From positions 56,725,594 through 56,789,593 of the forward strand of contig OY979716.1 of NCBI GenBank assembly GCA_963855995.1: 64,000 bases of DNA, read 5' to 3'. This document shows, in pieces, positions 12,772 through 52,550 of this stretch. The notes beneath the pieces were generated by a model. It was not told the origin of the DNA and ran no database searches. It worked only from the letters and a program-made list of their open reading frames with translations. How positions within the stretch are numbered: the first letter of the stretch is position 1; each line of letters begins with the position of its first letter. The position numbers and the translations under genes were made by a program. The stretch is from Muricea muricata (Eukaryota; Cnidaria; Anthozoa; Malacalcyonacea; Plexauridae).

Positions 12772-12774
12772 TTT

Positions 12775-15958: not shown

Positions 15959-15961
15959 TTT

Positions 15962-28099: not shown

Positions 28100-29265
28100 A
28101 GCCGAAATGTTGGGAGATAATAAAGTACATTTCTGTATACTTTTTAGTGGACACTCTTGTGCCAGAAAGATGCACCATCTTTTGCTGGCAGGTTATGAAG
28201 ATGCTCCATCTTTTCTTAACCAGTAAAAACTTAAAGTATATACTTGAAACATTCTCATGGTAGCACCTGATTGCAAACATAACTATGTAGTTTGTTTCCC
28301 AAAGATATATACATGATTTTCGTACATGGAATGTTTAAAAATATACTTTTTAGTGGACACTCTTGTGCCAGAAAGATGCACCATCTTTTTCTGGCAGGTT
28401 ATGAAGATGCTCCATTTTTTCTTAACCAGTAGAAACTTAAAGTATATACTTGAGATGTTCTCATGGTAGCACCTGATTGCAAACGTAACTATGTAGCTTG
28501 TTTCCCAAAGATATATACATGATATTTGTACATGAAATGTTTAAAAATATACTTTTTAGTGGACACTCTTGTGCCAGAAAGATGCACCATCTTTTGCTGG
28601 CAGGTTATGAAGATGCTCCATCTTTTCTTTACCAGTAGAAACTTAAAGTAAATACTTGAAATGTTCTCATGGTAGCACCTGATTGCAAACATAACTATGT
28701 AGCTTGTTTCCCAAAGATATATACATGATATTCGTACATGGAATGTTTAAAAATATACTTTTTAGTGGACACTCTTGTGCCAGAAAGATGCACCATCTTT
28801 TTCTGGCAGGTTATGAAGATGCTCCATTTTTTCTTAACCAGTAGAAACTTAAAGTATATACTTGAGATGTTCTCATGGTAGCACCTGATTGCAAACATAA
28901 CTATGTAGCTTGTTTCCCAAAGATATATACATGATATTTGTACACGAAATGTTTAAAAATATACTTTTTAGTGGACACTCTTGTGCCAGAAAGATGCACC
29001 ATCTTTTGCTGGCAGATTATGAAGATGCTCCATCTTTTCTTTACCAGTAGAAACTTAAAGTAAATACTTGAAATGTTCTCATGGTAGCACCTGATTGCAA
29101 ACATAACTATGTAGCTTGTTTCCCAAAGATATATACATGATATTCGTACATGGAATGTTTAAAAATATACTTTTTTGTGGACACTCTTGTGCCAGAAAGA
29201 TGCGACATCTTTTGCTGGCAGGTTATGAAGATGCACCATCTTTTCTTAACCACTGGCAACTCATA
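28100..29265. repeat. Satellite, 206-bp unit, about 5.7 copies, with two-unit higher-order pattern
   Basis: The block GTGGACACTCTTGTGCCAGA occurs (last copy slightly diverged upstream of it) at 28147, 28353, 28559, 28765, 28971 and 29177, exactly 206 bp apart. Units at 28353 and 28765 share TTTTTCTGGCAG, CCATTTTTTC and CTTGAGATG. Units at 28559 and 28971 share TTTTGCTGGCAG, TCTTTACC and AGTAAATACTTG. Thus the array contains two copies of a 412-bp dimer. Each unit contains a short minus ORF, but 206 is not divisible by three, so no continuous protein is encoded. Interval 27917-28100 is plain. Confidence 0.95.
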
Positions 29266-31639
29266 GTATACACAGAAATATTCCAATATACTGCAGCACA
29301 ATTGCGAACAGATTATATCTTCGCTTGGTTTCACATGACATAAAAACTGTGTATTTTAGCAGTCACAATGTGTCATGTGCGATGCGTTTTTAGTGTTCTG
29401 CGAGCTTTGTAGGTATAGTACGAGTAAATTAAGTCTTTCGTAGTCTTTTAGTTAAGTCTTAACAGATAAAATTTAATATGAACCACCTTTCTCGACTCAG
29501 TGCATATGCACGGCTGCAACAAAAGCATTTTACATGTCATGCTGTGTTTTAATTGTAACTGTCAACAATCATATATATTATGTTAGCGCAAAACCATTTC
29601 TTCGATATCAGATAGCGAACTATCAATATATAACAGATATTTAACTTATTAAATAGTTGGATTCCCACTGTAAAAAGCAATTTCGCTTAATGCAACCAAT
29701 CAAATTTGAGATTTTTACACATGCAAATTTGTATAACTGAATATAAGCTCATTTACGTCATTAGATGCAGGTCAACTATTAAAATGAAATGAAATCAACT
29801 ATGAAATGAACTGCTGCTCCAAAAGAACAGATACTACACTTCGTTTTCTTCAGACAGACAGTATATAATACTTAGATCATATGTGTAATTGAATTTCTCT
29901 CTATATATATTTTTGATGTTGTTTGCAAGGGGGCTATGCAACATGCTGAAATTTTCCGTTGCTCTCCCATAAGGCATAGCGGTCTTAGTGTAGACACCAA
30001 TACTTGGTGATAGAACATTGATAAAAGCCCTAAACAACCTGCCATATTAAACCAGACTAAACCAAATTAAACCAGACAAATTGGGCGTATGCTTAGTTTG
30101 TAAGAAAACCATTCCACTTAGAACCAATCAGCTGTCTTGAATCGTAAATGTTTCAAGTTTTGAAAAAACTTTCCAGTTGGGACCAATAATAGTCACTCTA
30201 ATGGAAAGGCTTTTTGATTTTATCCAATCAGAGACCAGTATTCATACAAAGCCTTAGGGAAAATATTTTAAATTTGGATTTCATACAGATATGAATGTCA
30301 TGTCATTTTTGACACTTGAGATATCTCTGGATAAAGTTTGCCACAAATGCGTCTCAGCCAAATCTTATATGTTATAATAATACGGAATTTTTATCTTCTG
30401 GTCTGAATTTCAAACTGATAAATTGTGATCTACATGTTGTAATCAACTAAAGCAATTATGTACGCCAAACACAAACAAATATGTAATGTTATACAACTGG
30501 CCACTGGTTATACAATCTTTTCAACTGGGGAATTTCACATAGTGTATGAATCTTCAGTTGAAACAGAATTTTAAACAGTCATTTAACGTTAACAATACGC
30601 ATTTATATTAATTGTTTATTAACATTTATTTAGTGAGATAATTTCGTAAAAAGCCGTAGATATTCGTGTTTTAGATAACTTAGTCTTGGGAGGCAAATCC
30701 TCACGTAGCTACAGTATCTATATGCAAATACATAAACATGTTTGATATTTTCAGTGCAGCATAGACTCACTAAAATCTTATTGCAAGACCATCACATGCT
30801 ATGCAGGTGTTAATTGTTTGTCAATACCTCTTTCCTCATGAGATGAAAAACATCAAACAGTTTGAAACATATATCTATGGCTATATATATTTCAAAAATC
30901 ATCTAGTCAAAAGTCATTTTGATTAACATATAAAATTAAGAACTGGCAGTATTCCACATACGCATCTTTACCTGGTGTTTATTAAATGACCGTATCTGCA
31001 AACCAAGCCAAACAAGATGCCATGAAGAAGGCTAGCTTGACGTGCAGTCTAGCCACCGTGTCATATTTCCGATTGTGCAGAAATGTCGAAGACGTATTCT
31101 GAAATACAATTTTTTGTACTTTGTACTCTGAGGGGAAGACAAACACGTTGCTCGAGGTTGCAGAATTTTTATGAGATAATGTTAAGCAACTGCGCAATTA
31201 GCCGAAATGATTGTCTCACATTTTCTCGCCATAAATTTATGGCATGAATAACAATGCAAAGACTGCAAAGAGTAAAGTAATATCAACTGTGCATTGATTT
31301 ACAATAAACAAAATCAAATAAATATGTATCATGCAGAGTGATTTAATGATGTACCTACCTGTATTGAGCCAGTTCCATCAGTTTGAAAACGGATATTTCT
31401 GAAATGGATAACTCTGCCTGTGCCATTACATGCTGCATATCATTGTGTTACCTATGGTAGCAGTGTCTAAATATACAGTTGCTTCAGCTTCATATAGCAT
31501 CTGGATCATCTCGACATTTTCCATACGGTATTGTCGGTATGAATAAAGCTCGAATTGTAAAACCATGTAACATTGTGAAACTATAACCAGTATAGGCAGT
31601 CATTACCTAGTTATCGAAGCTGTTCAAATAAACTTGTTA
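29266..31639. other. No gene recognised
   Basis: AT-rich. Scattered CCAAT motifs occur at about 29693, 30123, 30183 and 30220, and an octamer ATGCAAAT at about 29722, but without a TATA box or an adjacent open frame. Confidence 0.45.
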
Positions 31640-32909: not shown

Positions 32910-33345
32910 TTTTGTGGTGATGATGGTGGCGATGGTATTGATGGTGACAGCGACGACAATCATGATGATGATGATGATGATGATGGTGACGATGCTGATT
33001 GTTATATGGAAATGATGGCGTTGGTGTCGTTGACGATGACGACAATGATGATGATGATGATGATTGTGGTGGTGGTTGTGGTGGTGTTGGTAGTAGTGAT
33101 AGCGGTGGTGGTGGTGGTGGTCTTGATGATAATTTTTCTTCATAATACAGTGGTGATGGTGATTTATGGTATGGTGGTGATGATGGTGGTGGTGTTTATG
33201 CTGATCGCGATGGTGCGGTGGTGATGGTGACGATAGTAATAATAATGATAATTATAGTGATAGTAGGTTGGTGATAGTGGTGGCGATGATGACAATAATG
33301 GTAATAGTTCGATGGTGATAGCAGTGATAATGATGATGGTGATCT
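32910..33345. repeat. Trinucleotide microsatellite, GTG/ATG-rich on plus
   Basis: Interrupted (GATGGT/GGT/GAT)n over about 430 bp. The His-rich and Asp-rich frames across it are by-products of the repeat. Confidence 0.9.
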
Positions 33346-33597
33346 AGCACATCCTTAAATATTGTTCCTTTTGCTTTTTTTTAAAAACTTTTTTCGCATG
33401 ATTTCGCGCTATTATTGTAAAGTAATTCGATTGGCTGAAACCGTAAGGGTGGGAAGATGTTACCTTCAGCATTAAACAATTTAGCATTTCTAATGTGCTT
33501 ATAGAAAATGGGATTTCCTCACACCTTGCTTTATGCATCTATTTAAAGCGCCAATTAGGAACACATGTTAATTGCGTAGGCTGTTCTCATATTAAAA

Positions 33598-33882
33598 AGG
33601 AACGCGAATTGAAACGCAACAAATTGTTCCGACTTTAATTTGAACGTTCCTTATACTTAATTGTTCCTTAAATAGGAACGCTACCACAAATATTGCAATT
33701 AGGAACAACAAATATGTTCCCTATTATGGTTGCTTATTTAGGAACAAAAGGTTTCACTCTGCGAAACAGGAACGAATAGTAATGCTATAAACTATTATTC
33801 GTTTATTGCTAATCAGCTTACTGAAAGGGAACAACATAGGGTATTGTTCCCTTTACATTATGTTCCTTTTCATTGTTCCCTT
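33598..33882. repeat. GGAAC/GTTCC motif array, copy 1
   Basis: About twelve copies of AGGAAC(A/G) or its complement TTGTTCC in both orientations within 285 bp, including paired forms such as GAACGTTCC and TTGTTCCTTAAATAGGAAC. It lies about 100 bp ahead of the recombinase coding region. The motif density and mixed orientation resemble iterons or a factor-binding array. Confidence 0.8.
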
Positions 33883-33984
33883 TGCAGCATTACATTAACA
33901 CAGTGCAATGTAATATATATGGATGAGTGGATTTTGCAAGCTAATAATTAACCGCAAATTAAAATATAATATAATAAAAATTGC

Positions 33985-35555
33985 AAAACCGAGACATTTG
34001 CACTTGGTGAAAGGTAGCGATGGGCTAGATCATTGTCCTGTAACGGGCTGTGAACATGCAGGATTTTCAAGTCAAAGAGGCTGTCGCAAACATGTAAAAA
34101 CAAAGCATGCTTAGTATTACTATTTCGACAAGAAGCTCACCGTATGCACTTTGCCATGTGCAAACGACAAAAGTAACGCTAATAAAGGCTCTAAAACAGT
34201 ACCCTGCTGCTCGACAGACAATGATTTCACTTGTTCATTCTCCCAGTGGCTTTAAAGCAGTTGCGGCGGCGGAAAATCTCGTAAACAGTCTGACATTTCA
34301 GTAACAAGAGCTTTAAAGTTTATAAAGTTTAGTTACGATGAAAATGGCGAGGGGGAAGAAGATGTGCTCCATATGCCTAATCTGATCGACTACGCCTTGG
34401 GATGTCCTGAGCTGTTGATAAAATTCGTCGACAGTCTAAAAGACAAGTGGGGTATTGGACACTTGGGACAAATGTGTTATGTTGCAAGTATTTCAGATTT
34501 ATTAGATTTTTGATATTTAACCGTCCTGCTGCGTCGGTGCTTCAAAACTTTCCCGTTACCGAAGTGTATGTGAAGAGAGTGTGAAAGTGCCTGCCCAAGG
34601 ACATGTGATCTAACTGGACAAGTGACCTAGACATGGAAACACTCGAATCGCGCAGTTGGGCGATGCTGTCCGAAGTTCAATCCGTTATTCCATTTCACAT
34701 CGAACATTACGAATCCGTATTACAAAATTGCATGACATGTCGTTCAGTCAGACACGGTGATTTCACCTTTGCCACCCGATTCGTCGCAGCTTACCTGTTC
34801 CTAAAAGTGAAAGGCTGTCGTCCCATGACATACCAGCATCTAACCTTGCAAATGTTTGAAAGCACAAAGAGAAACGATGGAATAGTCGATCAGAAAATTT
34901 TCAAAACAGCCAGAAGGTACGGTTTTGACAGTGTATATTTTGACGAATGCAGCATGGATATGATAGAAAAATATATAAAGTACATCAGACCGCTTCTCAC
35001 ACCCACTTGTGAGTACGTGTTAGTCAATCGTAACGGTAAACAATTTCAGCAACTTACAGAACTGCTTAGTGTGTTGGTGTTCGAAGCCATCGGGAAATAC
35101 ATTCATCCAACCAGGTATAGACAAATCATCGAAACACAAAGTTGTGAAGTTCTTCTGCCCAACGAACAGAAATGGATATCTGAAGACCAGAAACACAGCT
35201 CCAACGTTGCTCGTGTGCACTATCAAAAAAAAAGTTCACGGGAAGTGGGCATGAGAGGATGCTGGTGCAGGCAAAAGTTAGTTGAAGAAAGCAAGAGCAT
35301 GGAGAATGATTGCAACAGTGTTGATCAGTCACCACCCATAGAAAACCCAGTGAGTCCAACGAACTTAACAGCGAAATTACCGACACGTCGGACGGGTATC
35401 CGTTTTACATCTGAGGAAGACAACTACCTTAGCTTGGCATGAAAAAATTCGGTTTGAGTTGGTCAGAGATTCTGCATGATCCAGATTTTCATTTCAATTC
35501 ATGTCGTGTTCCAAATACTTTAAGAAAGTGAGCAGAAGCTTTAAAATTAGTGTGA
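33985..35555 (+). pseudogene. C2H2 zinc-finger tyrosine recombinase (Crypton-like) with Myb/SANT-like tail, copy 1
   Basis: N-terminal C2H2 finger CPVTGCEHAGFSSQRGCRKH (34039-34098), TAG where copy 2 has Trp (34112), and a damaged segment. Then ALKFIKFSYDENGEGEEDV and WGIGHLGQMCYVASISDLLD form the helical DNA-binding domain. An intact 269-residue block follows (34633-35442). Candidate catalytic residues are Arg in KGCRPMTY (34819-34821), HPTR (His 35104, Arg 35113-35115), His in DQKHSS (35194-35196) and the nucleophile Tyr in RVHYQK (35221-35223), the R..HxxR..H..Y order of tyrosine recombinases. A 1-nt shift near 35438 leads into a Myb/SANT-like tail ending at 35555. Such enzymes cut and rejoin DNA through a 3'-phosphotyrosine. 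Confidence 0.8.
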
Positions 35556-36132
35556 AGGCATTGATGTCATTTTTAATAACAAAAATAAACACTTACTGTA
35601 AAATGTTACATGTAATCCAAAAATTAACTGAACTTACATATACATTGTGAACGAATTACAATATGTTTAAGAATCATGGGCATGTGTTCAAACAAAAACA
35701 CAAACATTGTACTTGCCCCACTTTGAAGGCTAACCTTTACTTGTTCAAAATTTAATGTTAATGAGGCCAGTTATTGTTTATGTTTGAAACAAGAAAGGTT
35801 TATCTTTGAAATTATAGAATTTAATATATTATTCAACAAGAAAACTCGTGTAAAACAGTTCAATTTATTTTCAACTGTGTCCCATGCATATACAAGGTTG
35901 CGTTGAATGATTTCTTTTCTTTTTTAATATAAGGCATATCCTACAGTAGTGAAATGACATGTCTTAGGAATATATCTAATTTAGTGGAGTTGCTTGTACC
36001 CTATGTAGAATAAAAGGTGTGATATATTATAATCTTATCACTATCCCAAATTACGAATCAAAAAAGTTAAGAATACAAATCATGATAACTGCATACAAAG
36101 AGTGTCGTTGTAATTTACTTTGTCTCAAACTG

Positions 36133-38262
36133 GACCGGCTACCTAATAGAAATCCTAGTAAAATTCACCACCTACCTTATATAAAACAACCGGCTACCAA
36201 CATACAGTACCATATTCTCTCTATTTAGCCCCACCCCCCGGGGGGACTTATTCATTTCAGAAACTTTTGAGGGGGGCTTATTGAAGAGGGGGGAGCTTAA
36301 TTCAAAGGGGTGGCTTATTTATTCATCCAAAAAACCAGTGATGGAGATGTGTCGTTGTAATTTACTTTGTCTCAAACTGGACCGGCTACCGGCTACCTAA
36401 TAGAAATCCTAGTAAAATCGACCGTCTACTGACCGGCTACCGTATATAAAACGGTCATGGCTTTATAGGATACCCTAAGGGTCGAAATGTCGAGAGAGCA
36501 CTGGGACCGAGTTGCCCCGGTGTTTTGTGTATTTCTCACTTACTGGGACTGTATCCACTTTAATCACTGTATCTACTTCACCAAATTTAGCTAAAGAGAG
36601 AGCGCGTAGCACGACAATAAGTGTACTGTTTTGCTATATTAAAACTATTCTCACTCACTGGGACTGTACCACTTCACCAAATTTAGCTGAAGTGCGAGCC
36701 CGAAGGGTGAGTAATGATTGTCGCGCTACACGCTCCCTCTTTAGCTAAATTTGGTGAAGTAGATACAGTCCCAGTGAGTGAGAAATGTGACAACCCAAGA
36801 CTCGATATTGGTAGTTATGTATAGGGATACACAAAACACAGGGGCAACTCGGTCCAAGTGCTCTCTCGACATTTCGACCTTTAAGCACGTTTTCCACTTC
36901 AATCGTATCATAGCAAAACGTAGCGTATTTCATTGTTTCGTGAACACTCAAGCACAACTTATGATATGGACACAATGAAATACGCTACGTTTTGCTACAA
37001 TACGATTGAAGTGGAAACTGGCCTTTAGGGTATCCTATAAAGCCATGACCTATATAAAAGGACCGGCTACCAACTTACAGTAGCCGGGCGTGAAATTTTT
37101 TAAAGTGCCATCGACATTTAGTTTTGTTCAAAGTTGACCGGCTACCAGCTATCTAATAGAAATCCTAATAAAATCGACCGGCTACCAACATATAGTAGCC
37201 GGTCTTGAAATTTTTCTAAGTGTCGTTGTGATTTACTTTGCCTCAAACTCCACCGGCTACCGGCTACCTAATAGAAATCCTAATAAAATCAACCGACTAC
37301 TGACCGGCTACGAACTTATGGTAGCCGGTCTGCTACAATACGATTTGAGGCAGAGGTTTGAGGCAAAGTAAATCACAACGACACTCAGAAAAATTTCAAG
37401 ACCGGCTACCATAAGTTGGTAGCCGGTCATTTTATTATGGTAGCCGGTCAGTAGCCAGTCGATTTTATTAGGATTTCTATTAGGTAGCCAGTAGCCGGTC
37501 GAGTTTGAGGCAAAGTAAATCAGAACGACACTTAGAAAAATTTCTAGACCAGCTACCATAAGTTGGTACCCGGTCGTTTTATTATGGTAGCCGGTCAGTA
37601 GCTGGTTACTTTTTATTAGGATTTCTATTAGGTAGCTGGTCAACTTTGAACAAAACTAAATGTCGATGTCACTTACAAAAATTTCATGCCCGGCTACTGT
37701 AAGTTGGTAGCCGGTCATTTCCAATGGTAGCCTGTCATTTTAATTGGAATTTGTATTGTAGCTGGTAGCCAGTTGGTTTTAGCTTGGAAGTAAATTTATT
37801 GGACACTGAAAAAATCAGGCACCGGCTACACCCAAGCAGCAGCCGATCATTTTCTTATTGTAGCCGGTCCTTTTAATTGGAATTTCTATTGGTAGCTGGT
37901 AGCCGGTTAGTTTTAGCTTTGAAGTAAATTTATTAGACACTTAGAAAACACCAAGCACCGACTACAGCCAAGCAGTAGCCGGTTGTTTTCTTATGGTAGC
38001 CGATCAGTAGCTGGTCATTTTAATTGGAATTTCTATTGGTAGCCGGTAGCCGTTTAGTTTTAGCTCCGAATGAAATTTATTAGACACTTGTGGAAAAAAT
38101 TGAGGACCGGCTACACCCAAGAGGTAGTCGGTTCAGTAGCCGCTCAATTTCATTGCAATTTGTATTGCTAGCCGGTTACTCTTAGCTTTGAAGTAAATTT
38201 AGCACAGGAGCAGAAAGAATGAAGTACCAGCCAGGTAAAAAGGTAGCCGGTCGTTTTTGCTA
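36133..38262. repeat. GGTAGCCGGTC inverted motif array, copy 1 (foldback-like)
   Basis: Dozens of ACCGGCTACC or GGTAGCCGGT motifs are embedded in units such as CTAATAGAAATCCTAATAAA. The left part (36133-37320) carries units in one orientation and the right part (37380-38262) in the other, so the region folds on itself with a centre near 37330. Successive units diverge to the right. It fills most of the space between the convergent recombinase and helicase genes. A GGGG-rich patch at 36225-36310 looks like a further small insertion. Interval 35556-36132 holds no gene. Confidence 0.8.
36455..37045. mobile_element. Nested inverted-repeat element within the array, with a second hairpin inside
   Basis: TCATGGCTTTATAGGATACC at about 36457 recurs inverted at about 37027-37047. 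The following 160 bp (GTCGAGAGAGCAC, CCCCGGTGTTTTGTG, ACTTCACCAAATTTAGCTAA) recurs inverted at 36715-36885. Inside the right arm at 36888-37016 is a smaller hairpin with arms of about 45 bp around CAAAACGTAGCGTATTTCAT. This shows repeated insertion into the array. Confidence 0.75.
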
Positions 38263-38804
38263 ATAGTCAATAATATCATTAGGTAGTCATTTGACCGTGA
38301 ATATTTTTTGCCTGGGCGGTGGCTTTTGGTAATCTATCAATTGACATAGCATACATACTTGATAGGAATTTAGTAACGTTAATTTATCATATCTAAATGA
38401 GAGAGCATAAAGAGTGCTATTTTGTGGCACTTGTAAATAATTGATCATACACAGTTGATATATTTTATTTGCACAACATATAACACAGTATTTATAATTG
38501 CAATAACGCAATGGTATTGTAGTTATTGTAGAGCAGAAACATGCCTGGCAATTGCAAATAATTAATCACGCTTCAGTCACTTATCAATTTAGGGAGGAAT
38601 CATTATTTTTTAGAGGGGGGGGGGAGTATAACAACAGAAAATAACTTTGGAATTATCGTTGCCTTCTCTTAGTACATGAAAAACAAACATCACATTTTCT
38701 AAGATCATTTTAAAATTTTCAAAAACATATAATCCTATCGGCAATTGTAGTAGTTCTTGTCCAATAAACAATGATAAATCCCATAGTAGCAATGTATTTA
38801 CCTC

Positions 38805-38900
38805 CTGTGGAGGGGGGAGAATACCTCCACTGTATCCCCTGCGTGTCGTAAAAGGCAGCTAAAAGGGGTTAGGCGATGGATTAACGCCCGCCCTTTTTTT
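38805..38900 (+). repeat. Possible SINE-type conserved core
   Basis: CTGCGTGTCGTAAAAGGCAG followed by CTAAAAGGGG resembles a short core that I remember recurring in many invertebrate repeats (CGTCGTAAGAGGCGACTAA). No A/B box pair or tail is evident here. The flanks 38263-38804 and 38901-39654 show no gene. Confidence 0.3.
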
Positions 38901-39654
38901 TCTGTTCGAAATTTGTAATAACACAACAGCGTTTGTTTGTAGCTGATGGAAAAAACCCTTAGCATCCTCTATATTCCAACAAGCGATGTAACACACACAT
39001 TCAGGTAATTAGTATTTCTCGTTTCATAACATCGTCCATGCCACTGTTTACATGAGACAGGCTAGACCAGTGAGCTGGCCCCATTTGTGCCAGGAAAATT
39101 GTCCTTCTTAAGCCAAAAACAAGTTTTAGGCTAACTGGTTATTGTCTTTCAAATCTAGTTTACGTAAAATATCGAACTTGTGTTAAGTATAAGAGATATT
39201 AGTCACGGCGGTTAGCCAGGCTAGCCCGGATCATGTAATCAACCGCCATGTTCTAAGTTTTTATTTATTTAAGTTTTCATTCAATTGGGTAAATTTATGC
39301 AGCAAACAATGAGTGCATAATGCTTTAACTTTGTGTTGTACTTTGAAAAGTACTTAAAGGAAACACTTAATCCTTTACTAATGGCAACACACACACAGTT
39401 TCATCATGAAGGGGATTAAAGCTGCTTCAGACCACAAAAGTTTTTGTGATCACAACTTCAATTTTGTATTGGTAAATGATACATTTTGGAGAGTTTGTAA
39501 GAAATCTTAGAGGAAAATTCATGCTAGGTGAAAAACTGATTTGATGATTTACCTTTAAACTTTCATGGTGTGAATTAGCCTTTCCAAAGATATGTTTAGT
39601 AAACTAAACGGAATCTGATTATGTAAGTTCACATAATGAAAGTTCCGTGAGTAT

Positions 39655-42340
39655 TTACCATGGCCGCCATGTCTTAATTTTCATCCAATAAGATTGTGAG
39701 AGGATCTGAGGACGCGCCGGGTCTCCATCTTCATCTAGCTGAATTTCTTCTTCATCGCTATCATTCGGTTCCGGCGTTTGAAAAGCTTCCATTGCATGTG
39801 AAAAAGGACAACAATCTGGAACATGAGCAGTGAGGCATCGATAGTTGGATCGGCGACCACCCAGAAGTTCTTCTCCTGATGTGTTCGCCGTAATCCAGCT
39901 CTTCGTGCACGTTCTCGAAAGCTGTGCACCAGAGCCTTTGACGGGTTTCTGTAGAAAGACCATTTTATCAGCTGGGCAACCCTCGTAAAATATTCATTAG
40001 AGTTAAGCACCCAGCCATCCGGCGGACTACTAATCTGTTGTTGGGGGACAGACGTTGATGGCTCCGAGGTGCTGTCCAGTGGTGCAGGTGCAGGTGTTGC
40101 TCGATCGTCATCAGGGGCTGTTACCTGGCTATCAATGGCTCTTAGATCTTTATCAACGGCTGTTGCATCGTCATCAACGGCTGACTGATCGTGATCAACC
40201 GCTTTTGTATGGTCGTCAACGACTGTTTGTTCATCATCATCAATGGTTGATGCATTAGCACCAAGGGCTGTTGAACCAGCAACGGCAACTGCTATGTTGA
40301 CATCGGACTCAATAACGTTCCAATCAATGTCAGTTTCATAGCCCGTGTTCTCGTCCTCAGCCGTCTGCTCTACTGCATGCGTTAATGAACGTGGCGATGC
40401 GTGACCATGGGAGATTTGTCCCTCGCTGTCGGTGTGCTCATCATCCGTTCCATCAAGTTGTTGTCGCCGACGTTTCCGTAGTCGTTGGTTACGGTATTCC
40501 TGGTGGAATCGCTTGTGAATGACGGGGCTGGTGGGTTCTTTTTCTGGCATTTCCACTTCTTTCAAATCGCCAGGACAAATGCCGCGAACATGCTCAATTT
40601 CGAAAAGGGACGTTGCTTCGTTGGCAGTCATGGTCAGTCTTCTGGTGACATTCGGCTCGTAGCACAACTCGTCCTTTGAAATATGGTGGTAGTGACGTGC
40701 AACTCGTCTAGGATCCAGGCTATACAATCCATAGCATGATCATATCCAACAGTCTATTAACGGTATTTGGGATGGCAAAGACTTTGTGATGAAGACTTGA
40801 ATCCTTCTTTGCACATTTGCATCTTCATCGCCGAAGTTGGGAACATCATTGGTCGTTATGTAGTAGGGACTGTTGTTGATGACCCGTCTCGGTTTACCAT
40901 GCTTGACCGCTGTGACCATCCAGCCACCTTGCAGTATGGTTTTGGTGAGGGTTGAGTCCATCGTATTGGCTGACCACTCGTCGACGATCACCAGCTGTGT
41001 GTCATCGGTAAGCATAGCGGCCGAAAACTGACGTTCGCTTGTGATGGTCGCCATACTTTCTGCTGGAACTACACGATGAAATATGTTTGCCCAAGAGGTT
41101 TTACCAGAATCTCTCGGACACGCAACAACGAGTTTTCTTACTTTCTGTGGCATTTTAGATGCCATCAAACACTGGCACAGCTTGTTGAGAAAGTTCACAC
41201 GTACCGCTGGTTCGTCGAATGAGTTGAGGATGGCTTCTATAAAGTAGCCGGGCTCTGGTCGGGTCGTACAATCATAGGGCATGAATGCCCTTGGTGAGAT
41301 CTTTCTACGCATTGCATCGTCGATAGCACAGGGTACGAAAGTGCAATTTTCGACAGACAAGCACACTCCATGTGATACTTCGATGAGGTCCAGATTGAAC
41401 TTTAACTGCTGGACGATTTTGCGAGGAACTTTTCAATCATGTGGAAATGCTTCATTACACCGTCCCTCAGATACTGATTCGCCAGTAATTTATGAAGGTA
41501 ACTCGTCACGTCCATCATTCTCACGTATGTGAATGATGCACCATCCGGTTTTGCGTACACCTGTGATCGATAGAGGGCGTGGTCTCACAATTTCATGGTT
41601 TTGTTGATTTTTTTACCACAGCAGATACTTCGTTGCTTCCGATTTCATAGGGATGCAGAAAACTGTCGTCGTGTGAAACATCGATATCAATGACGAGGCT
41701 GTCAGAACGTAACCTCTCAACAGCATGCTGTATAGGTGCACAATGCTCTCGTTGATTTATGACAACAATTGCACATGGAACAGTTGGGAAATGGCTCGGA
41801 CAAATGTCTTTGTCATATGAGTCGGGATCGTCGGAGCTGTCGGCTGCTTCTTGGTAGCAGTAGGCTGCTTCTTGGTAGCAGTAGACGTTAGACAAGTCCA
41901 AAATCTCTTGAACTGCCTCGTTGTTATGGTCTTGGATCACTTGGAACAACTGCTTTGCCGCCGTCTCTGTCTGTCGGTTTTGGTCACTGCTTACCCTTAC
42001 TCAGATAGGTGTGATATTCGGCTCCACCTCCTCGATATGCAATTTAGCGAAAATCGTCGTCTTGTTACACTCGTCATTTTCTCAGTACACGATGAAATAT
42101 GCAATCGCTGGATAGGTTTCGCCTCTACAATCTTCTGAGGACTTTGCGTTGGTAGTTACGCACGTAACACGTGAGAAGAAAAATTGAATGCCGCTGATGT
42201 TAGACAGGACATCGTCTAAACTCAATCTTTTGGATGGAATTTTGTACATTGCCAGTTTGATATCCTTGCGGCAAACACGCCAAACAGCTCTGCAGGATAT
42301 AGCTTTGCAATTTGTGGAAATCTAGTGTGTATTTGATAAA
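39655..42340 (-). pseudogene. SF3-helicase replication-type protein, copy 1
   Basis: N-terminal homology to copy 2 starts near 42335 (AISCRAVWRV, IPSKRLSLDDVLS, TYPAIAYFIVY) and passes TGA at 42082-42084 and another near 42003. It then includes LFQVIQDHNNEAVQEIL and, after shifts, MMDVTSYLHKLLANQYL. The helicase block (from about 41430) has Walker A PRDSGKT (41120-41097; the leading Gly is Cys here), Walker B QLVIVDEW (Asp-Glu codons 40982-40977) and motif C NNSPYYITTNDVP. These are SF3 motifs as in small DNA-virus and plasmid replication initiators. After a shift near 40700 come a basic RNQRLRKRRR stretch, an unusual Asp-Asp repeat region (DDDEQTVVDDHTKAVDHD, 40250-40110), and a C-terminal WVLNSNEYF...FWVVADPTIDA domain. 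At least four frameshifts. No capsid gene accompanies it. Confidence 0.7.
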
Positions 42341-42855
42341 TTTTACTGTTTTTCTAAATGTTGTAAAGAGAAGACAATGAAGCAACGCACTCTATATGAG
42401 TTACTTACCATAGTCAGAATGTTTGCACGAAGCGAATTCTGCAATCTTTTTTAATCCAATTCCTTTCTGGGATGTGGAGGAGCCATAACATTGGAAAAAG
42501 CGAACAGCAATACAATATTCGAACAACGACGGTCGATTGAAAAATGCGATAGTTACTACAGACAGCGCAATTTAAACTTAACTTATTATGCGTGCATGCA
42601 TTTATGATTCATGTGGTGGAACGACATATTGTACTTTGGTGGGGTATCGTATAGGTAAAATTTGTTTCCTTAAGCGTATGACAATCACATCCATTAGTCT
42701 TCCATTTTCGCCTCAATGCATGAACAGCACAATTTGTGAGATTCTTAATAATGCGAAGTTATTTCAAGCAATAAACGGATTCTAATGTGCACAAAAAGTA
42801 ACAAAATAGTGTATTTCTTTTTTATGATTTTTTGCATATACTTAAAATGCATAAC

Positions 42856-43094
42856 AGGAACATGTATAAACATTTAAATATTCCTGTTTGGAAAGGGAAC
42901 GTGAATGAAAAAGGAACAAATTGTTTTTATGAATATAATGTTGTTCCGGAGGATTATGTTCCGAATGTCAGAACCGTTTGGGAACGAAAGCCAATTAGGA
43001 ACAGCCAGTCTGTTCCGGTTCATGGTCAAGTAATGAGGAAAAAACGTTCCTCTTGAAAGGAACGCGTAAGCAATTGTTCCCTCTTAGCCTTTGT
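42856..43094. repeat. GGAAC/GTTCC motif array, copy 2
   Basis: About thirteen AGGAAC, GGGAAC, TGTTCC and GTTCCC motifs in both orientations within 240 bp, e.g. AAAGGAACAAATTG and ACGTTCCTCTTGAAAGGAAC. Same motif as the array at 33598-33882, yet the sequence between motifs does not match, so motif and position are conserved rather than the whole segment. Confidence 0.8.
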
Positions 43095-43155
43095 TCCCTT
43101 TACGTTCATTGAAGACGAACGATGTCTTAGTGACATTATGTTCTTCCTGTACGCA

Positions 43156-43163
43156 TATAAATA
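43156..43163 (+). promoter_or_regulatory. TATA box downstream of GGAAC array 2
   Basis: GCATATAAATAGCC lies about 60 bp after the last GGAAC motif and about 300 bp before the recombinase coding region, on the same strand. This suggests that the array is the upstream element of the recombinase promoter. Confidence 0.45.
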
Positions 43164-43468
43164 GCCTGATAATAACATTAGCAGACCACGCAAACACAGC
43201 AATAAACATAAATATAATTCCATAGATTGCTCATTCGTTTGTCTAAATATGCAGAAATAAAAAAAAGCATTGCAATGCCCGTATCATTAAATGCAAGATT
43301 ATAGCTGTGGGCTTGTATTTCATTGTAAAAAGAGCTTAAAAAGCAAAATAAATGCATTTCACATGGCAAACTTTTTAGGTGTTTGCATACAAAAACAAAG
43401 TCGCCTGGCATTTTCTCGCTTTTCATGTGTGCAAGTAAGACGCTAGAATAGATTGGAAGTTAGTAGAC

Positions 43469-45093
43469 GGTGCATTTCCTAAACTGAGACAACTACATCT
43501 AATAAAAAACAGTGATGGGCTAATTTGATGTCCAATTGCTGGCTGTGACCACCCTGGATTTTCGAGTCGGAGAGGATGTCGTGAGCATGTAAAGGCAAAA
43601 CATTCCTGGTATCACTATTTCGACGAGAAGCCCAAACTATTTGAAGATAACTCGCTGTTGACTTTCGCCCGATATGCCTTCAAGGGAAAAGGATCCAAAA
43701 TACCGAACTGCTCGAAGGATAATGATTTTGCACGTTTCTTCTTGCAGTGGCTGCAAAGCAGCTGTGGCGGATATTTCACAAGCAATCGGATATTTCTGTG
43801 ACAAGAGTGTTAAAGTTCATCAAATTTTGTTGCGATGAGAGTGGCGAGGCGGAAGAAGACCTGTTTTCGTTTCCAAATATGATTGACTACATGTTGGGAT
43901 CTTCGCAGCTTTTGACAAATTTTGTCGACAGTCTACACAAAATATGGGGTATTGGCCAGTCGGGGCATATGGCGTACGTAGCGAGCATATCAGATTTACT
44001 TGACTTTCGCAAATTTTGTTCACCACCAGCGTCCGTGCTTCAAAACTTCGCTGTCACCAAGGTCTACGTGAAAAGAATGCAAAAGTGTTTGGCAAAAGAT
44101 GAGATTAAACTGGACAACCGATTTGGATATAGAGACGCTCGAATCTCGCAGAAGTTGGGCCACCCTATTTGAAGTACAATCTGTCATCCCATATCACATT
44201 GAACATTATAAATCTGTTCTGGAAAGGTGTACGATAAATTCAAGTTGTGTGAAGCCTGGAGACCTCACATTTGCCACGAGATTCATCGCAGGGTACTTGT
44301 TTCTTAAAGTGAAAGGCTGTCGACCGATGACCTACCAACACCTTACCCTACATATGTTCGAAAGTGCGAAGAAAAATGAGGGAATGGTAGATCAGAAAAT
44401 TTTCAAGACGGCCAAAACGTACAGTTTCGATAGCGTCTACTTTGCGGAAGGTAGCATAGAATTTTTGGAACAGTACATCAAATGTGTGAGACCCCTTCTA
44501 AATCCATCCTGTGAGTACGCTTAGTGAATCGAAATGGAAAACAGTTTCAGAAACTTACTGAACTTTTCAGCGTCCTAGTTTTCCAGGCGATTGGAAAGTA
44601 CATCCACCCAACAAGATACAGACAGATAATTGAAACCCAAAGTTGCAATGTACTTCCTCCAAAGGAACAAAAGTGGATGTCAGAAGATCAAAAACACAGC
44701 TCGAATGTCGCCCGTGTTTACTATCAGAAGAAACGGTCACGCGAGGTAGCCTAAAGAGGACGTTTGTGTATGAGCAAGTTGCTAGCCACGGAAAATGGGA
44801 ATGTTTCCAACGAGGTGGACAAAACTGTGGAGAATGAAAACAGTCGAACAACTTGTGCATTGAATTCAGCGTTGCAAACAAATGACTTCCCTCAAAAACA
44901 TTGGACAGAGAAATTATTTCGGCGGCGTTCTGGTATATGATTCACAGCAGAGGAAGACGATTTTATTAAAGTTGGCATTACAAAATTTGGGCTGCGTTGG
45001 TCAACGATATTACGTCACCCTGGTTTTACTTTCAATGCATGTCGTGTTCCAAACACTTTGCCCAAAAGAGCAGAGGCGTTAAAACTTGTGTAA
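43469..45093 (+). pseudogene. C2H2 zinc-finger tyrosine recombinase (Crypton-like) with Myb/SANT-like tail, copy 2
   Basis: LRQLHLIKNSDGL, TGA where copy 1 has His (43527), then the finger CPIAGCDHPGFSSRRGCREH and WYHYFDEKP. After a shift near 43800 come VTRVLKFIKFCCDESGEAEE and WGIGQSGHMAYVASISDLLD. A 1-nt shift near 44105 leads to LDIETLESRRSWATLFEVQS. Catalytic-type residues are KGCRPMTY (near 44315), HPTR (near 44609), DQKHSS and VYYQK (44680-44740). A shift near 44520 interrupts between CEY and VNRNGKQFQ. The Myb/SANT-like tail (FTAEEDDFIKVGITKFGLRW) follows an in-frame TGA at 44938-44940 that replaces a CGN Arg of copy 1. The natural stop is 45091-45093. Function as for copy 1. Confidence 0.8.
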
Positions 45094-45370
45094 TTATATA
45101 TGACTTGTAAATCGTATTGCATGAATTGAAAGGCGGACAGGGCCACAATTAAAATAAATCTTGTAAAAAAACAAATACAATTGATGTTTGTCATGTAGCT
45201 GTTGTCTGTTCTAGTCTAATTTTTGATGTTTTTCTAGCCACTTGCACATTCAATAATTAAGAATAGCCACTTGTACATTGTACTTGAAAAGATTTTAAAC
45301 TTGCATGAAGTTGGAAAGATCAAACTTAGAAAATTTCAAGAGTAGAAGTCGTATAGAATGTATAGTGAAA

Positions 45371-45714
45371 CGCTTGGCTACCACCTGGCTACCATAGACA
45401 GTAGCCAGGTGGTAGCCAGGTGTTTTACTAGAGATTTGTATTGGTAGCCAGGTAGCCAGCTGTTTTGAAGTTAGACTAAGTTTCAAGACATGATTTGTAT
45501 AAAAGAACATAAGTTTTCAAATACCTGGCTACCACCTAACTACCATTGTCAGTAGCCAGGTGTTTCAAAACTTATGTTCTTTTATACAAATCATGTCTTG
45601 AAACTTAGTCTAACTTCAAAACAGCTGGCTACCTGGCTACCAATACAAATCTCTAGTAAAACACCTGGCTACCACCTGGCTACTGCCCATGGTAGCCAGG
45701 TGGTAGCCAGCTGT
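45371..45714. repeat. GGTAGCCAGGTG inverted array, copy 2
   Basis: CACCTGGCTACC motifs and their complements surround a long hairpin. TTTTGAAGTTAGACTAAG through ATACAAATCATG at 45469-45510 recurs inverted at 45573-45625, centred near 45540. Further degenerate units occur at about 46553-46568 (interrupted by a MITE), 46808-46818 and 46975-47015. The position between recombinase and SF3 gene matches the larger array of copy 1; the motif differs by one base (CCAGG versus CCGGT). Confidence 0.75.
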
Positions 45715-46568
45715 TAAAAAATCTCTTAACTTTATGCAAGTGACCTGTTGAAAGTTAGTAACAATGGAAAATTAATGCAAATCCTTAGTAGAATAGGTAG
45801 TTATGACCTGGCCACTGGCATTAAACACTAGCCTCATATCTAGGATTGATTAAATTGAGTTATATCATATTCGTTTTGTATGTAACACATATCTGTGTTC
45901 GGTATGATTAGATAATAAAAGCACTTAGTTGGAGTAATTACGTTCAGGTACGTTTCTACACAATAAAGTTGGCAACTTAAAAAGCAAAACAATGATGAAT
46001 GGCAATTTTTTTAATTGTGCACCTTCTTCATTTATATTTTTTTAATATTGTGCACATTCTTTATTTATAATTTTTTATTCTCGTGCACCTTTTCATTATT
46101 TTGTTAGAATTAATATTTTTTGTCTTATTGAATATTGTATAGAATGTATAACAAATTTACTTAACACACAGGGAAAGAAGGTCAAAAATACTGCAACTTC
46201 TCAACATAGTTGTATATTGAAACAAATGTAAAGACACAGACACGAAAAAAGGTAAGTAATGTCATGTTAAAGCGACTTTGGCCTTTTTGTGTGTTAGAAT
46301 ACCAAATAAATCCGTCCGTATTCCTATAGAATTGCAGTAATTGCTGGACCACGTCTCTTTTAGGGCTTCACTTGGAATACCCTGCACTCAACATATATAA
46401 ATAAATGATAAGTTGAAGCGAACCTTAAAGTACTAGAATTGGTATCACACATATATGTTAGATTTAAGAGAAGTGCTAAAACTGTTCTGTGCACTTCTAT
46501 GTTATTCCCATCAAGGCATTCAAAATGATATGATGTCATATAAACTTTTCCTTCAGGTGGTAGCCAGG

Positions 46569-46805
46569 GGCCGGTTGTTCGAAGCTCGTTTAGCTTCAAC
46601 GGTGGTTAAGCTCAAAGTAGAAACCAAGTTCATAGATTCATTCAACAACCGAACTAAAAGTTTTGAACCTTAGTAGAATGATTATGCTTACAACTACATA
46701 TTTACTGCAAAATATTTAAGTTAACTGTTTAACGAGTGATGTAAGAGTGTTATTTTATTTTGACTTATCCACCGTTTACGCTAAACAGGCTTCGAACAAT
46801 CGGCC
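46569..46805. mobile_element. 237-bp MITE inserted in a GGTAGCCAGG unit, CCAGG duplication
   Basis: The left end GGCCGGTTGTTCGAAGC is matched by the inverted right end GGCCGATTGTTCGAAGC. CCAGG occurs on both sides (46564-46568 and 46806-46810). Removing the insert gives GGTAGCCAGGTGTTTCA, which is exactly the repeat unit seen at about 45553, so the MITE postdates the array. Confidence 0.8.
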
Positions 46806-47062
46806 CCAGGTGTTTCAATGATGTAATATTATGTTAATGATTTTTTGAAATTTCTAAACCAAGTAAATGACGTCCCTTCTACCTCGCTACTAGCTTTAAT
46901 AGTCACATGTTTGAAAAACTTGTGTCATTATCTGCTAATCATTTCTTCGAAAGACCAGGCTACGTTGCCTAGCCTATCATAGACAGGTTGTAACCACGTG
47001 GTTCAAAACTCATGTAATTTTATGTGATTTTTTCACACAACTAGGTCCAATGTGATACACAC

Positions 47063-49932
47063 TCATTTCCTGATGGTGGTTATGAACGTTTGAAAGTTCA
47101 ATTGAATGTTACGTTGTTCGCCGTCCACGTCTTCGCGATTTGTTTGGGAAAGAATCTTTTGCATCGGACATCTGTCTGCCATCACTCGAACGTTCACGAT
47201 CCTTCTGATCTGCGATAAGCATTGGATGTATTTGCCATATCTCGTGACGAATGCCTCTAAATCGAATACAGCTCTCGTCCGGCCCATCACAAGCATCCAG
47301 GCATCGATTTCTGGATCAGGTATGGTCCAAAAATCTTTCTCCCATTTCAGTAATCTTCTTTTTGCTCGTTCCATTCTGCGGTTGAAACTACCTGTGTGAA
47401 ATCTAGAAAGTTCAGGAACATCAAACCGCCGTTTCCAAAGTTTTACAGTCTGACGAAAGTACGACCGATCGTTTAACACCCAACCTCTACTTTCGACAGG
47501 GCCAAACATTGATGGAGTTGTTGTACAATGCCGTGGTTTTGTTGGCGAGACGTTGGTGTGGTGCTGTTCAAAACTTTTCGAAGTTGTCGCGTCTTCTTGC
47601 TCCGTATCATCACAAGTGTCGCACGTGTGCGTAACATTTCCGACAGAAGAAACTTGTTCAGGTCTAGTTCTATGTGATGATCATCTTCGTGTTATCACTA
47701 GACCGTGGCCGATAGGTTGGGTGTTCGTTGTGGAGGAGTGGGTGGAATCTTCAGTGGACACGCATTTTTCAGCTTCAAGCTGTTGCTCGATGTGCTCAAA
47801 CACTGGAGGTTCTACAACTTCGGGCAGGTGCATCATTTCCTGGTCAATTTCCTGTTCCGATTCGTTGTGGATTTCGTCCTATTGTGATGCTGCATGTGAG
47901 ATGGTACACCTGACCTTGTGTGCCTGTCTCTTTCTAGACAATCGATGCCGCGTCGTCTCAAGATGGAAGGACTCATGAATGGCGTCGGTGAACTGAACAA
48001 CATCCGATTGATCTTTACTTCTCCCTTTCAACTCATCCATCGTCACTCTCGGGACGGCGTCCACGTCGAAAAGTCATAAGGCGTTGTTCTCGTTTTCAAT
48101 GATTTCGGACCTGTTTTGCATTTCGTACCACAGCTCTTCTGCGGGGATATGGTGTTGGAGACATGTTATTTCATTTGCCAACCAAGAAATGCAATCCATG
48201 GCATGATCAAACATCCAACGATCTGCACCAGAAGTGTATTGAGGCAAAGATTTTGTTCGAAATATTGCTATTCGGCGTTTCACATTTTCGTCATCCTCGC
48301 CAAAGTTCGGCACTTCGTTCGACATGATGTAAAATGGACTGTTGTTCATAACAATGCGCGGTAAACCATGTTTTACAGCCGTCACCATCCAACCACCTTG
48401 AGGAATCGTTTTGGCTAGATCCGATTGCAGTGTTTTGCTTGACCACTCGTCGATAATGACAAGCTGGGTGTCTGGTTTGATCATTGCTGCCGAGAACTGT
48501 CCCTCTTCAGTGATGTACGCGATTTTATTCTTCGGGACAATCCGGTGAAATATGCACGCCCATGAGGTTTTTCCAGAATCTTTAGGGCCTGCCACAACTA
48601 ACTTGTGTGAATTTTGTCTGGCATTTTACCAGCTAGCAAGCACTGGTAAAACTTGTTGCAAAATTTTGCACGCACAATCTCGTCGGCGAATGAATTAAGG
48701 ACGCCTTGTTTGAAGTATCCGGGTTGCGGCATCGTTGAACAATCGTATAGTATGAACAAGTGAGGTGAAATAAGACCGCATTTCGCTGGTGGAATGGCGT
48801 CGCCAATAAATTGTCGACGCGAAATTTGGAAGAAAAACCCATTTGACACCTCTATGAGATCCAAATCAAACTGGATCTGGACGATCATTTCACAGGCTGG
48901 GTGTGACAATATTCTGAGGAGGGACATGAAATGTTTCAGGACGGAGCCACAAATGTACTCGTTCGCTAGCAACTTGTTTAAGTAGCTGCCAACGTCCATC
49001 ATTTGAACGTAGGCCATTGTAGCTCCAGGTGCCTTCGTAAAGACGTCACCTTGATGAAGTGCGTGGCCACAAACGGACATCAGTGCCGTGATCTTTTTGA
49101 CGGTTTCAATCAAGTGGTTATTGGAGGAAAGGCAAGGACCATCCGGCTGTGCAGTGACCCACAAATCGATCTCGACGGTGAGGCCATCCGATCGTGACTT
49201 GTCTACCGCTTCGTGTAGTGGCGAGTTGAATTCGGTGGTGTTAATGACTATAAATTGACATGGTGACGTTGGATATCACGGCCGGCGATCTGTTACGTGT
49301 TCAGGCACATCGCTCTCTTCTTCCGCGGGTGACGATCAGCAATTGGCAACACAAAACTGGTTTGAAGCCTGCACCATCTCCAACACCATTTGATTGTTGT
49401 GGTCTTTCACAACCTGAAAGAGTTGCCGGGCAACGCTCTCCATCGATGTACTCACCCTTGTTGTAATCGGTTGTACGTTAGCTTTGGTATCTTGGTTGTG
49501 AAGCAATGTGTAAATAGATTGCGCGTTGCACGTGTCCGTTTCGCGATACACAACAAAATATGCAACTGCTGGGTACACTTGGTCGCTTGTGCCATTCTCA
49601 TCCGCGCCCTGTCTAGTCTTGTTCGCATTTGTTGACGTTGCCGTGATGCTCGAAAGGAAAAATTGAACACTACATACTTGGCTTATGCTGTCGTCCAGAC
49701 TTAACCTTTTGCTGGCAATCAGGTTTCTCGCTTCTTGTACGTGTGTTTCTTTCACGCGCCATGTGGCTCTGCAGGCTAGAGCTTTTAAGTCGTTGTTGAT
49801 CTGTAGAACAGCCAAACATGAAAAGTTTACATTGCATTCAACGTTTAACTGTTCTAGAAGATACACGTAAAACTCAGGTAGCCTGTTTTTGGATATATTG
49901 GAAATTTCGACGTATGATGTACATGACATCAC
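47063..49932 (-). pseudogene. SF3-helicase replication-type protein, copy 2
   Basis: A 198-residue N-terminal block (MMSCTSYVEISNISKNRLPE, IASKRLSLDDSIS, VYPAVAYFVVYRE) ends at TGA 49336-49338. The same frame continues past another TGA near 49279 into WVTAQPDGP (49164) and MMDVGSYLNKLLANEY. A shift at about 48597 precedes the helicase: Walker A GPKDSGKT (48589-48566), Walker B QLVIIDEW (Asp-Glu 48451-48446), QGGWMVTAVKHG and motif C NNSPFYIMSNEVPNFG. The block ends at TAA 48074-48076. The remaining C-terminus is in pieces: a basic segment near 47950 and WVLNDRSYFRQ...FWTIPDPEIDAW (47480-47270). The start at 49932 is the first Met of the conserved frame. SF3 ATPases unwind origins for DNA replication; the family here is unnamed. 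Confidence 0.7.
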
Positions 49933-50747
49933 TTAAACACCTAGCTGCCATGCCATGACTGTTGCCATGTCGAAAGAGAGTAGTTGCGGAAAATATGCCC
50001 ACAGCATTAAATACATGAAGTTACATATACCATGGCCTGGCTTGTGGCATTGTTATCATTGTGATAAAATTAGAAGTGTTTTTCAACATGTCTTGCCATG
50101 TAGTACGTGTATGCATGTTAAATTTCTCTCACTTAAAGTTAATAATAATTCAGTTATACTTAGTTTTTCCTATCATTCACCATAGTTGTGCCGTGACAAA
50201 TTTTCCTGCATAGGCTTTTAAAGAAAACGGAAAATCGCCTTATTTCTTCATCTTTCACATAAAACAATGAATAACAATGAATAAAATACTCACAATAGTT
50301 ACTGTTGAAAGCATGTCGATCAATTACAATGATGTAACCAAATTATGCAATATTATCTATTTGCGTAGGTTGCTATATGGACCAAGGCCTACGCCCGAGA
50401 CTGAGTTGACAAAGTCAGTGATATATAACTGGCGTTCAACTTACCAATGGCAATATATTTGCTCTTAAAGAATTCTGTAGCCTCTTGGATGTGAGTTCTT
50501 TACAAGGCCAACGACGCAACAATGTTCACAAAACAGTTCAAACTTTTTGACATGTCTTAAAACCTTCTTGGCGATCAGTTTGCAGTGTGGAAAACAAGCA
50601 TTGAATAACGATGTAGGAACACAAGATTTTATAATGACCATTATAAAATCACGTGTATCATACGTGCAGGCTCTAATTCGTCAGCATCGCCCGTCATTAG
50701 TCTTTGTAAATTTCACAATTTTTCAAATGGGAACAATATTAAGCACT
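49933..50747. other. No gene recognised
   Basis: Region 5' of the copy-2 SF3 gene. No motif array or TATA box stands out, and no supported ORF. Confidence 0.5.
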
Positions 50748-51110
50748 TTGGTGATAGTGAAGGTGGTGGTGGTGATAATGATGAAAATGATGGTGGTGAC
50801 GATAGTGATGGTACGGTGACGATAATGGTGGTGATGGTGATGGTATGTTGGCAATGGCATTGATAATAATAGTATGGTGGTAATGATATTGGTGGTACAG
50901 TAGTGATGATGATGGTGATGACGATAACAAGGATAGTGATGGTATGGAGGTGATGATGATAGTGGTGGTGATGATGGTGGCGATTACGGTAGTGATGGTG
51001 CAGTGGTAATAGTGATGATGATGGGAATAGTGATGGCATGCTGGTGTTGATAGTGATGTAATAATGATAATGATATTGATGATAATGGTGCTGATGCTGA
51101 TAGTGATTGT
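50748..51110. repeat. Trinucleotide microsatellite, GTG/ATG-rich on plus
   Basis: Interrupted (GGT/GAT)n. The complementary CAC/CAT tract begins about 30 bp downstream, so the two could pair as a long hairpin. Confidence 0.9.
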
Positions 51111-51136
51111 CCGGCAGGGATAGTGGTGAAGATGAT

Positions 51137-51527
51137 GATGCTACATCACCACCACCATCATCACCACCAGCACTATCACCACAACTATTACCACTATACC
51201 AACACTTTTACCATTATAATCGTCATCACCACAATTACAACCATAATTACCACTGTACCATCACTATTATTATCATCACCATCACTATTACCACAACCTG
51301 ACCACCACCATCACCACCACCATCACCATCACCACCAGCAGCACAATCACTACCATTACCATCCTCACCCTAATCACAATCAGCAACTACTATCACGCAC
51401 CACCATTACCATCATCACCACCACCCCACATCACAACCAATATCACCATCACAACAACCACCACCACCACCACCACCACCACCACCACCACCACCACCAC
51501 CACCACCACCACCACCATCATCAACAA
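51137..51527. repeat. Trinucleotide microsatellite, CAC/CAT-rich on plus, pure (CAC)n near the end
   Basis: Interrupted (CAC/CAT)n becoming uninterrupted CAC at about 51458-51515. The purest part has the most recent expansions. His/Thr-rich frames across it are artefacts of the repeat. Confidence 0.9.
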
Positions 51528-51689
51528 TAGGGACAATGTAGACCAACATCTGTTCCATCAATATTAAATATACACGAATATTAGAAAAATATATTGATTG
51601 AACGCACTGCTACAGTAAAAAAGATATGTTACATGCCACTCGTAGTTCTTTTCATCATAAGTATAATAAACGAAATTTGTTGTTAGTAA

Positions 51690-52426: not shown

Positions 52427-52550
52427 ACTTCGGAAATTCCACTGCGGTGCTATAGAGTAAACACGATCGACAGCGTTAGAAAATTGAATGTTAGAGAAAA
52501 TCTTTTTAGTATTTGTTTTGTATTTCAGTTTGAATGGCGAGTTGAATGCC

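Follow-up and report, generated by a model that had tools for sequence, protein, structure and literature searches.

The 64-kb stretch of Muricea muricata DNA analysed here in full (hereafter the window; C1:56725594-56789593 of a host genome of 453 Mb in 74 contigs) contains two adjacent copies of a mobile element in which a tyrosine recombinase (YR) gene is paired with a convergently oriented gene for a superfamily 3 (SF3) helicase. Both copies are broken and have their YR on the plus strand: unit 1 occupies positions 33342-42640 (9.3 kb) and unit 2 positions 42641-50752 (8.1 kb). Unit 1 starts after a GATGGT repeat with the left end ATCTAGCACATCC..AATATTGTTCC and finishes with the right end ACTTTGGT (42633-42640), to which unit 2 is fused directly. 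The junction reads ACTTTGGT followed by GGGGTATCGTAT..TTTGTTTCC, which is the same form as that of a junction elsewhere in the genome (L041), and unit 2 finishes with ACTTTGGT at 50745-50752. The pair is bordered by target microsatellites without strand, i.e., a degenerate TGATGG repeat on the left (32918-33341) and TGATGG followed by CACCAT on the right (50753-51526). By k-mer score, the 64 kb contain only two repeat-scoring blocks, the left flank and ~50750-51530, both of which abut the unit pair.

Within each unit the order from head to tail is a GGAAC array, the YR gene (+), inverted GGTAGCC arrays, and the SF3 gene (-). The GGAAC arrays (+), with motifs on both strands, are located at 33364-33879 in unit 1 (15 motifs) and at 42857-43097 in unit 2 (12 motifs). 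The YR pseudogene of unit 1 (33914-35553, +), assembled from pieces aligned with unit 2, comprises a C2H2-like finger, the YR core and a C-terminal Myb region, and that of unit 2 (43439-45091, +), delineated by alignment with unit 1, carries a weak match to the Pfam Myb profile PF00249 (44941-45090; 1.3e-3, below its cut-off). Inverted arrays of GGTAGCCGG are located at 36100-38260 in unit 1, and unit 2 contains a GGTAGCCAGG palindrome at 45375-45709 with 158-nt arms that are 97% complementary (both without strand). The SF3 pseudogenes (-) extend over 39655-42450 (helicase core 40743-41432) and 47063-50525 (helicase core 48077-48625), with probable first exons within 42346-42450 and 50439-50525, respectively. 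The YR and SF3 frames of each unit are interrupted by stops and frame shifts, and both units are therefore pseudogenised.

The initial annotation of this DNA described two diverged copies in the same order and orientation, and these are indeed present: both arrays are found in each unit, and the DNA identity between units is 70% for the YR blocks (34016-35267 / 43511-44768) and 68% for the SF3 blocks (40722-41285 / 48189-48756). It placed the element at 33598-49932; the units do lie there, but their ends are further out, at 33342 and 50752. A unit boundary at the GGAAC array (~42855) was rejected, since the ends of other copies put it at 42640/42641; in the window alone, the inverted end motif reached a score of 23, which exceeds the 95% mark of the null (21) but not its 99% mark (25).

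Recurrence of the gene pair and its common ends

Matches in the host genome numbered 65 for the SF3 query and 76 for the YR query, which merged into 47 and 48 loci, respectively, when same-strand matches within 3.6 kb were taken as one locus; with 70 SF3 and 79 YR candidates scored, these totals are lower bounds. Contig C1, representing 124 of the 453 Mb (27%), yet holds 35 of the 47 SF3 and 36 of the 48 YR loci. The initial annotation would have been refuted had most genomic copies of either gene occurred without the other, which is not the case: a convergent YR is located downstream within 12 kb at 36 of the 47 SF3 loci. Random placement, with contigs besides C1, C3, C15, C25, and C53 entered at 60 Mb, gave 0.256 such loci on average and never more than 5 over 1000 trials. 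This control does not keep the clustering of the loci, whereas the 37:1 orientation skew does: the SF3-YR pairs within 12 kb comprise 37 that are downstream-opposite and 1 that is downstream-same, next to 12 upstream-same and 12 upstream-opposite pairs, which are neighbours in clusters. Weak support for linkage is added by the correlation between YR and SF3 identity (Spearman 0.58 over 35 hand-listed pairs, one being the query itself, and with one of the 36 convergent pairs, that with its SF3 at C1:84.51, omitted). Same-size contigs (212384, 1806854, and 155738) for database YR and SF3 proteins were set aside as weak evidence of linkage, because for 212384 the YR and the SF3 protein seemingly come from different families.

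Long SF3 open frames are present at 9 of the 47 loci. In the open copy at C1:63.49 Mb, a GGAAC array (63491135-63491452) is followed by a YR frame of 559 aa (63491545-63493221, +), inverted GGTAGCC arrays (63493810-63497420) and an SF3 frame of 961 aa (63498616-63501498, -), beyond which a CACCATC/GATGGTG repeat and then a second, inverted copy are encountered. Apart from YR and SF3, this 11.1-kb copy has no ATG-started frame of more than 152 aa. Over 3.6 kb around SF3, its relatives on C3, C25, C53, C1:8.65, and C1:25.72 have an identity of 99.3-99.4%. The left ends of four copies are 98.1-99.5% identical over 620 bp, and those of two more are 98.5-100% identical over 270-280 bp. At the left ends that were read, these copies share their starting point, (C/G)ATCTAGCATATCC..AATATTGTTCC, and the right ends that were read finish at GGAACA..ACTTTGGT(C/G), a form that varies in older families (e.g., L040 and L041). 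The C3 copy measures 11,124 bp, the full element being ~11.1 kb between its ends; overall, the element is ~8-11 kb long and present in many copies (dozens) in the coral genome. The C53 and C1:8.65 copies have left flanks that are 99.7% identical over 290 bp and probably represent one insertion on two haplotypes, C53 being an alternative haplotype, so that they are not independent copies.

Since the termini of near-identical copies coincide to the base at separate loci, and both genes lie between them, the two genes constitute one insertion, and the linkage as one unit that the initial annotation had inferred is shown. A Crypton and an unrelated SF3 transposon drawn to one microsatellite hotspot would account for the clustering of both genes, mostly on contig C1, but would leave unexplained why the order and orientation of the genes are constant (37:1 among downstream pairs) and why a single end pair encloses both genes and is repeated at separate loci; we consider this explanation barely credible. 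Two independent insertions were rejected in the host genome on the basis of the 36/47 linkage and the shared ends.

The insertion target is a microsatellite at nearly all ends read: CAT/CAC-type microsatellites flank 26 of the 28 ends with a recognised tag, the window's own two included, where the 99% mark of the null (500 draws from window positions 1-32500) was 0.08 of bases covered. At one of the two low-scoring ends, C1:98.77, a GATGGTGAC repeat that the measure missed is seen by eye. A 302-aa open stretch holds the C25 copy (L036/L037, C25:192539-204614) within its Asp (GAT) run and resumes in an Asp run beyond the copy, which splits a possible gene.

Tandem copies and repeat arrays

End-to-end joins recur outside the window: in L040, L041, L042, and L049, as in the window, a left end follows a right end without any intervening base. 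Microsatellite comes after the right end in L043 and L044, and in the head-to-head pairs L045-L048 a microsatellite is faced by right ends on one or both of its sides. In the merged list, seven head-to-head SF3 pairs are located ~3-5 kb apart (C1:25.71, 41.83, 63.50, 66.75, 70.95, 84.54, and 88.12 Mb), and in the five such pairs that were read, the microsatellite is faced by right ends. Because the two window units belong to diverged families, insertion at a resident end junction accounts for the pair better than simple duplication does. Ends and targets have a short common core (GGTC, TCATC or GGTGA, depending on the target), as would suit a tyrosine recombinase; since the target repeats this core, the crossover cannot be located exactly.

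The GGTAGCC-type arrays differ in sequence between the window units (GGTAGCCGG versus GGTAGCCAGG) yet remain palindromic, as would be expected for binding sites that follow their protein; when region 45340-45760 of unit 2 was folded as single-stranded DNA, a z of -32.9 was obtained. GGAACA-type motifs occur in both end arms as well, which makes the GGAAC array a candidate for recombinase-binding (arm) sites.

Elsewhere in the window, Helitron/Helentron-like fragments are present at 7804-19917 (-), including a Helitron_like_N domain (PF14214, 2e-8) at 11524-12270 and an OB-fold protein at 19183-19917. A P-element-like transposase with a THAP domain, a TNP-like RNase H and a P-element helix-turn-helix (HTH) domain is encoded at 52488-55384 (+), ~1 kb past the microsatellite, and a 206-bp tandem repeat (5.5 copies, 94% matches) is located at 28136-29270. 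Rfam and tRNA scans of the window gave nothing useful, and neither did searches of the genome-contigs collection.

Properties of the two proteins and their viral counterparts

The R, HxxR, H, and Y motifs reported initially for both window copies of the recombinase are present, and the corresponding residues (R134, H229, R232, H259, and Y268 in P0114 numbering) are kept in at least 90% of 39 aligned sequences, one of which is that of the window. The predicted structure combines an Xer/Cre-like catalytic fold with a TRF1-like Myb domain. With both the catalytic residues and the modelled fold, the protein is assigned to the tyrosine recombinase superfamily. Of the designation zinc-finger tyrosine recombinase, the second part is thus borne out by motifs and fold, while the C2H2-like finger is recognised by eye only and has no Pfam match. 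Relatives numbered 712 at E 1e-3 or better; among the best 120 of these 712, the closest named ones are from the octocorals Paramuricea and Dendronephthya, and hexacorals such as Montipora and Nematostella are further off; Exaiptasia is another hexacoral in which the YR is present. Five YR proteins of the family had no DUF3504 or phage-integrase match in Pfam at E up to 5. By sequence, the YR matched only Myb-type chains and one unrelated row in PDB; no relative was found among viral contigs, and a search of PHROGs gave nothing useful.

The Walker A and Walker B motifs and the Asn-bearing motif C, likewise reported for both window copies of the second protein, are present and are kept in 28 long relatives. 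Combined with the viral-helicase AAA+ fold of the structure model, they classify the protein as an SF3 helicase, the best structural match of which is the SaPI5 primase-helicase (PDB). In Pfam, PPV_E1_C was matched at 1.2e-5, just short of its cut-off, and DUF5906 passed its cut-off in P0020, P0030, and P0293. Eight long SF3 proteins were searched N-terminal to the helicase for an HUH nickase or an HUH-derived origin-binding domain of the kind found in CRESS, papilloma and parvo Reps, and the best Pfam value there was 0.0059, below cut-off. A conserved piece, also found in the open copy, suggests that the gene probably starts with a short upstream exon. Sequence comparison with PDB matched no helicase, and PHROGs yielded 'DNA primase' and unknown families only, besides weak chance-level rows. 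One protein of the family, P0237 from Paramuricea clavata, is deposited as 'sperm receptor for egg jelly-like' and is evidently misnamed.

Comparison of the window units shows that both genes were under selection before these units decayed. The proportions of non-synonymous differences (pN) in the three largest YR blocks (76, 135, and 76 codons) are 0.17, 0.14, and 0.06, versus proportions of synonymous differences (pS) of 0.65, 0.83, and 1.00, and the smaller in-frame YR blocks have a pN of 0.13 to 0.35 versus a pS of 0.56 to 0.78. In the SF3 core (135 codons), pN is 0.23 versus a pS of 0.74, with a ratio of non-synonymous to synonymous rates (dN/dS) of 0.08, and the other SF3 blocks of at least 20 codons have a pN of 0.30 to 0.45. 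The synonymous divergence of the two genes is similar, as expected if they travelled together, but it is at a level near saturation.

A YR integrase and an SF3 replication initiator are also found together in staphylococcal pathogenicity islands and phage satellites, which are bacterial and use the capsid of a helper phage. The coral element resembles these in carrying both functions on an integrating element and in the structural match of its helicase, a relation at superfamily level only. Among eukaryote-associated elements, Polinton-like viruses and virophages likewise pair a YR integrase with a replication protein of SF3 type, and they also carry capsid genes. Judged by frame length alone, the open coral copy contains no capsid or packaging ATPase gene, and its size differs from the 14-40 kb given for these viruses (PMC12220804). 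For crustacean endogenous nimaviruses, a YR with a C2H2 domain, insertion into (TAACC)n and possible concatemers are described (PMC10871703), features that recall the finger-bearing YR, microsatellite insertion and tandems reported here; the pemonivirus genomes named there are 300-360 kb, in contrast to the two genes and ~8-11 kb of the coral element, and the repeat motif is another one. RepE1 cressviruses, detected in sea-anemone data and sometimes apparently integrated, have an E1-like SF3 helicase to which the coral protein can be likened by description; they carry capsid genes, and the section that describes them (PMC11071296, section 12) mentions no recombinase.

The PPV_E1_C and DUF5906 matches would suit an integrated small DNA virus or virus satellite. 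Its helicase would be a viral initiator akin to papillomavirus E1-like Reps, and a capsid would be missing either because the element is a satellite or through loss. The E1-like cressviruses of sea anemones, with possible integrations, and the microsatellite-inserting YR viruses of crustaceans point in that direction as far as the published descriptions go (PMC11071296; PMC10871703). Against a viral origin, the open copy encodes nothing of capsid size besides YR and SF3, viral contigs contain no relative of the SF3 protein either, and the phage collection, searched with SF3, gave two matches only (E 0.3-0.8). We regard a viral origin as unlikely.

Relation to Cryptons and proposed life cycle

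Cryptons, tyrosine-recombinase DNA elements that also occur in Cnidaria, are the closest transposons (PMC3212892). The initial annotation characterised them as recombinase-only, which is too strong, as the Crypton structures set out by Kojima and Jurka (2011, PMC3212892) include GCR1_C, DDE, C48, and HTH domains; animal Cryptons are reported there without terminal repeats and without a C-terminal domain. The coral element agrees with Cryptons in having a YR and no frame that would suggest a DIRS/Ngaro reverse transcriptase, as judged from the frame list of the open copy and without a reverse-transcriptase profile search. It differs in its linked SF3 gene, the C-terminal Myb domain of its YR, its microsatellite target, and the lack of a match to the Crypton-derived DUF3504 in the five YR proteins mentioned above. 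The element is a new superfamily-level variant of YR DNA transposons rather than a plain Crypton. The survey of the open-access literature, with Repbase and closed journals outside its scope, found, among the best-ranked papers, no earlier description of a capsid-less animal element in which a YR and an SF3 helicase occur together.

The element could still move by cut-and-paste, as the Crypton YR is described to cut and rejoin DNA (PMC3212892), with the helicase as a regulator or passenger that does not replicate it, and the solo recombinases would accord with this. A passenger role is at odds with the purifying selection seen in SF3 divergence, the long open frames at 9 of the 47 loci and the YR beside 36 of them. 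Moreover, SF3 proteins with known function are replication initiators. Cut-and-paste with a non-replicating helicase is in our estimation improbable.

The reading that we favour, and consider likely, is that of a two-gene, YR-mobilised element that targets microsatellites: it would be released as a circle, replicated by the SF3 initiator-helicase that it encodes, and inserted again. The integration step has good support. The earlier steps are proposed: the recombinase would join the ends (..ACTTTGGT[C/G] + ATCTAGC..) and release a circle; the SF3 protein would load on an origin, for which the inverted GGTAGCC arrays are the most likely site, and copy the circle with host polymerases. The recombinase would then insert copies at microsatellites through the short common core, or alternatively where the ends of resident copies meet, so that tandem clusters build up. 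The GGAAC array near one end probably represents arm sites bound by the recombinase.

Several findings weigh against this scheme. No SF3 is present within 12 kb at 11 of the 48 YR loci, no YR at 7 of the 47 SF3 loci, and 4 more SF3 loci have one in another arrangement only; decay or the limit of 70 and 79 candidates may explain these partnerless loci, and solo forms are possible. The end at C15:7.38 lies outside any microsatellite and is a true exception, and 5 of the 14 fetched end stretches (L051, L053, L055, L056, and L057) had no recognisable end, while 9 gave the tag. The SF3 structure model has a mean predicted local distance difference test (pLDDT) score of 59.7 (helicase part ~64-87). 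Finally, neither the circle nor a replication product nor the recombination itself was observed.

In a wider view, to which we give about even credence, the element may be to animals what integrative plasmids or phage satellites are to bacteria, i.e., a capsid-less circle that replicates under its own SF3 initiator and re-enters site-specifically at microsatellites, with a telomere-binding-type Myb domain for targeting; it would then represent a new copy-out/paste-in eukaryotic superfamily, in octocorals and perhaps other anthozoans. How eukaryotic recombinase-based DNA transposons gain copies is, to our knowledge, not settled. Because the coral element encodes a replication initiator, is present as young open copies, and has defined junctions and a simple repeat as target, circle replication and site-specific reintegration can be tested directly in an animal. 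The combination of a YR with a virus-like replication helicase is apparently undescribed in the open-access literature on animal transposons; it adds a recombinase with a (CAT/CAC)n preference and shows E1-like SF3 helicases in a setting without a capsid, a point of relevance to the origin of small DNA-virus replicases.

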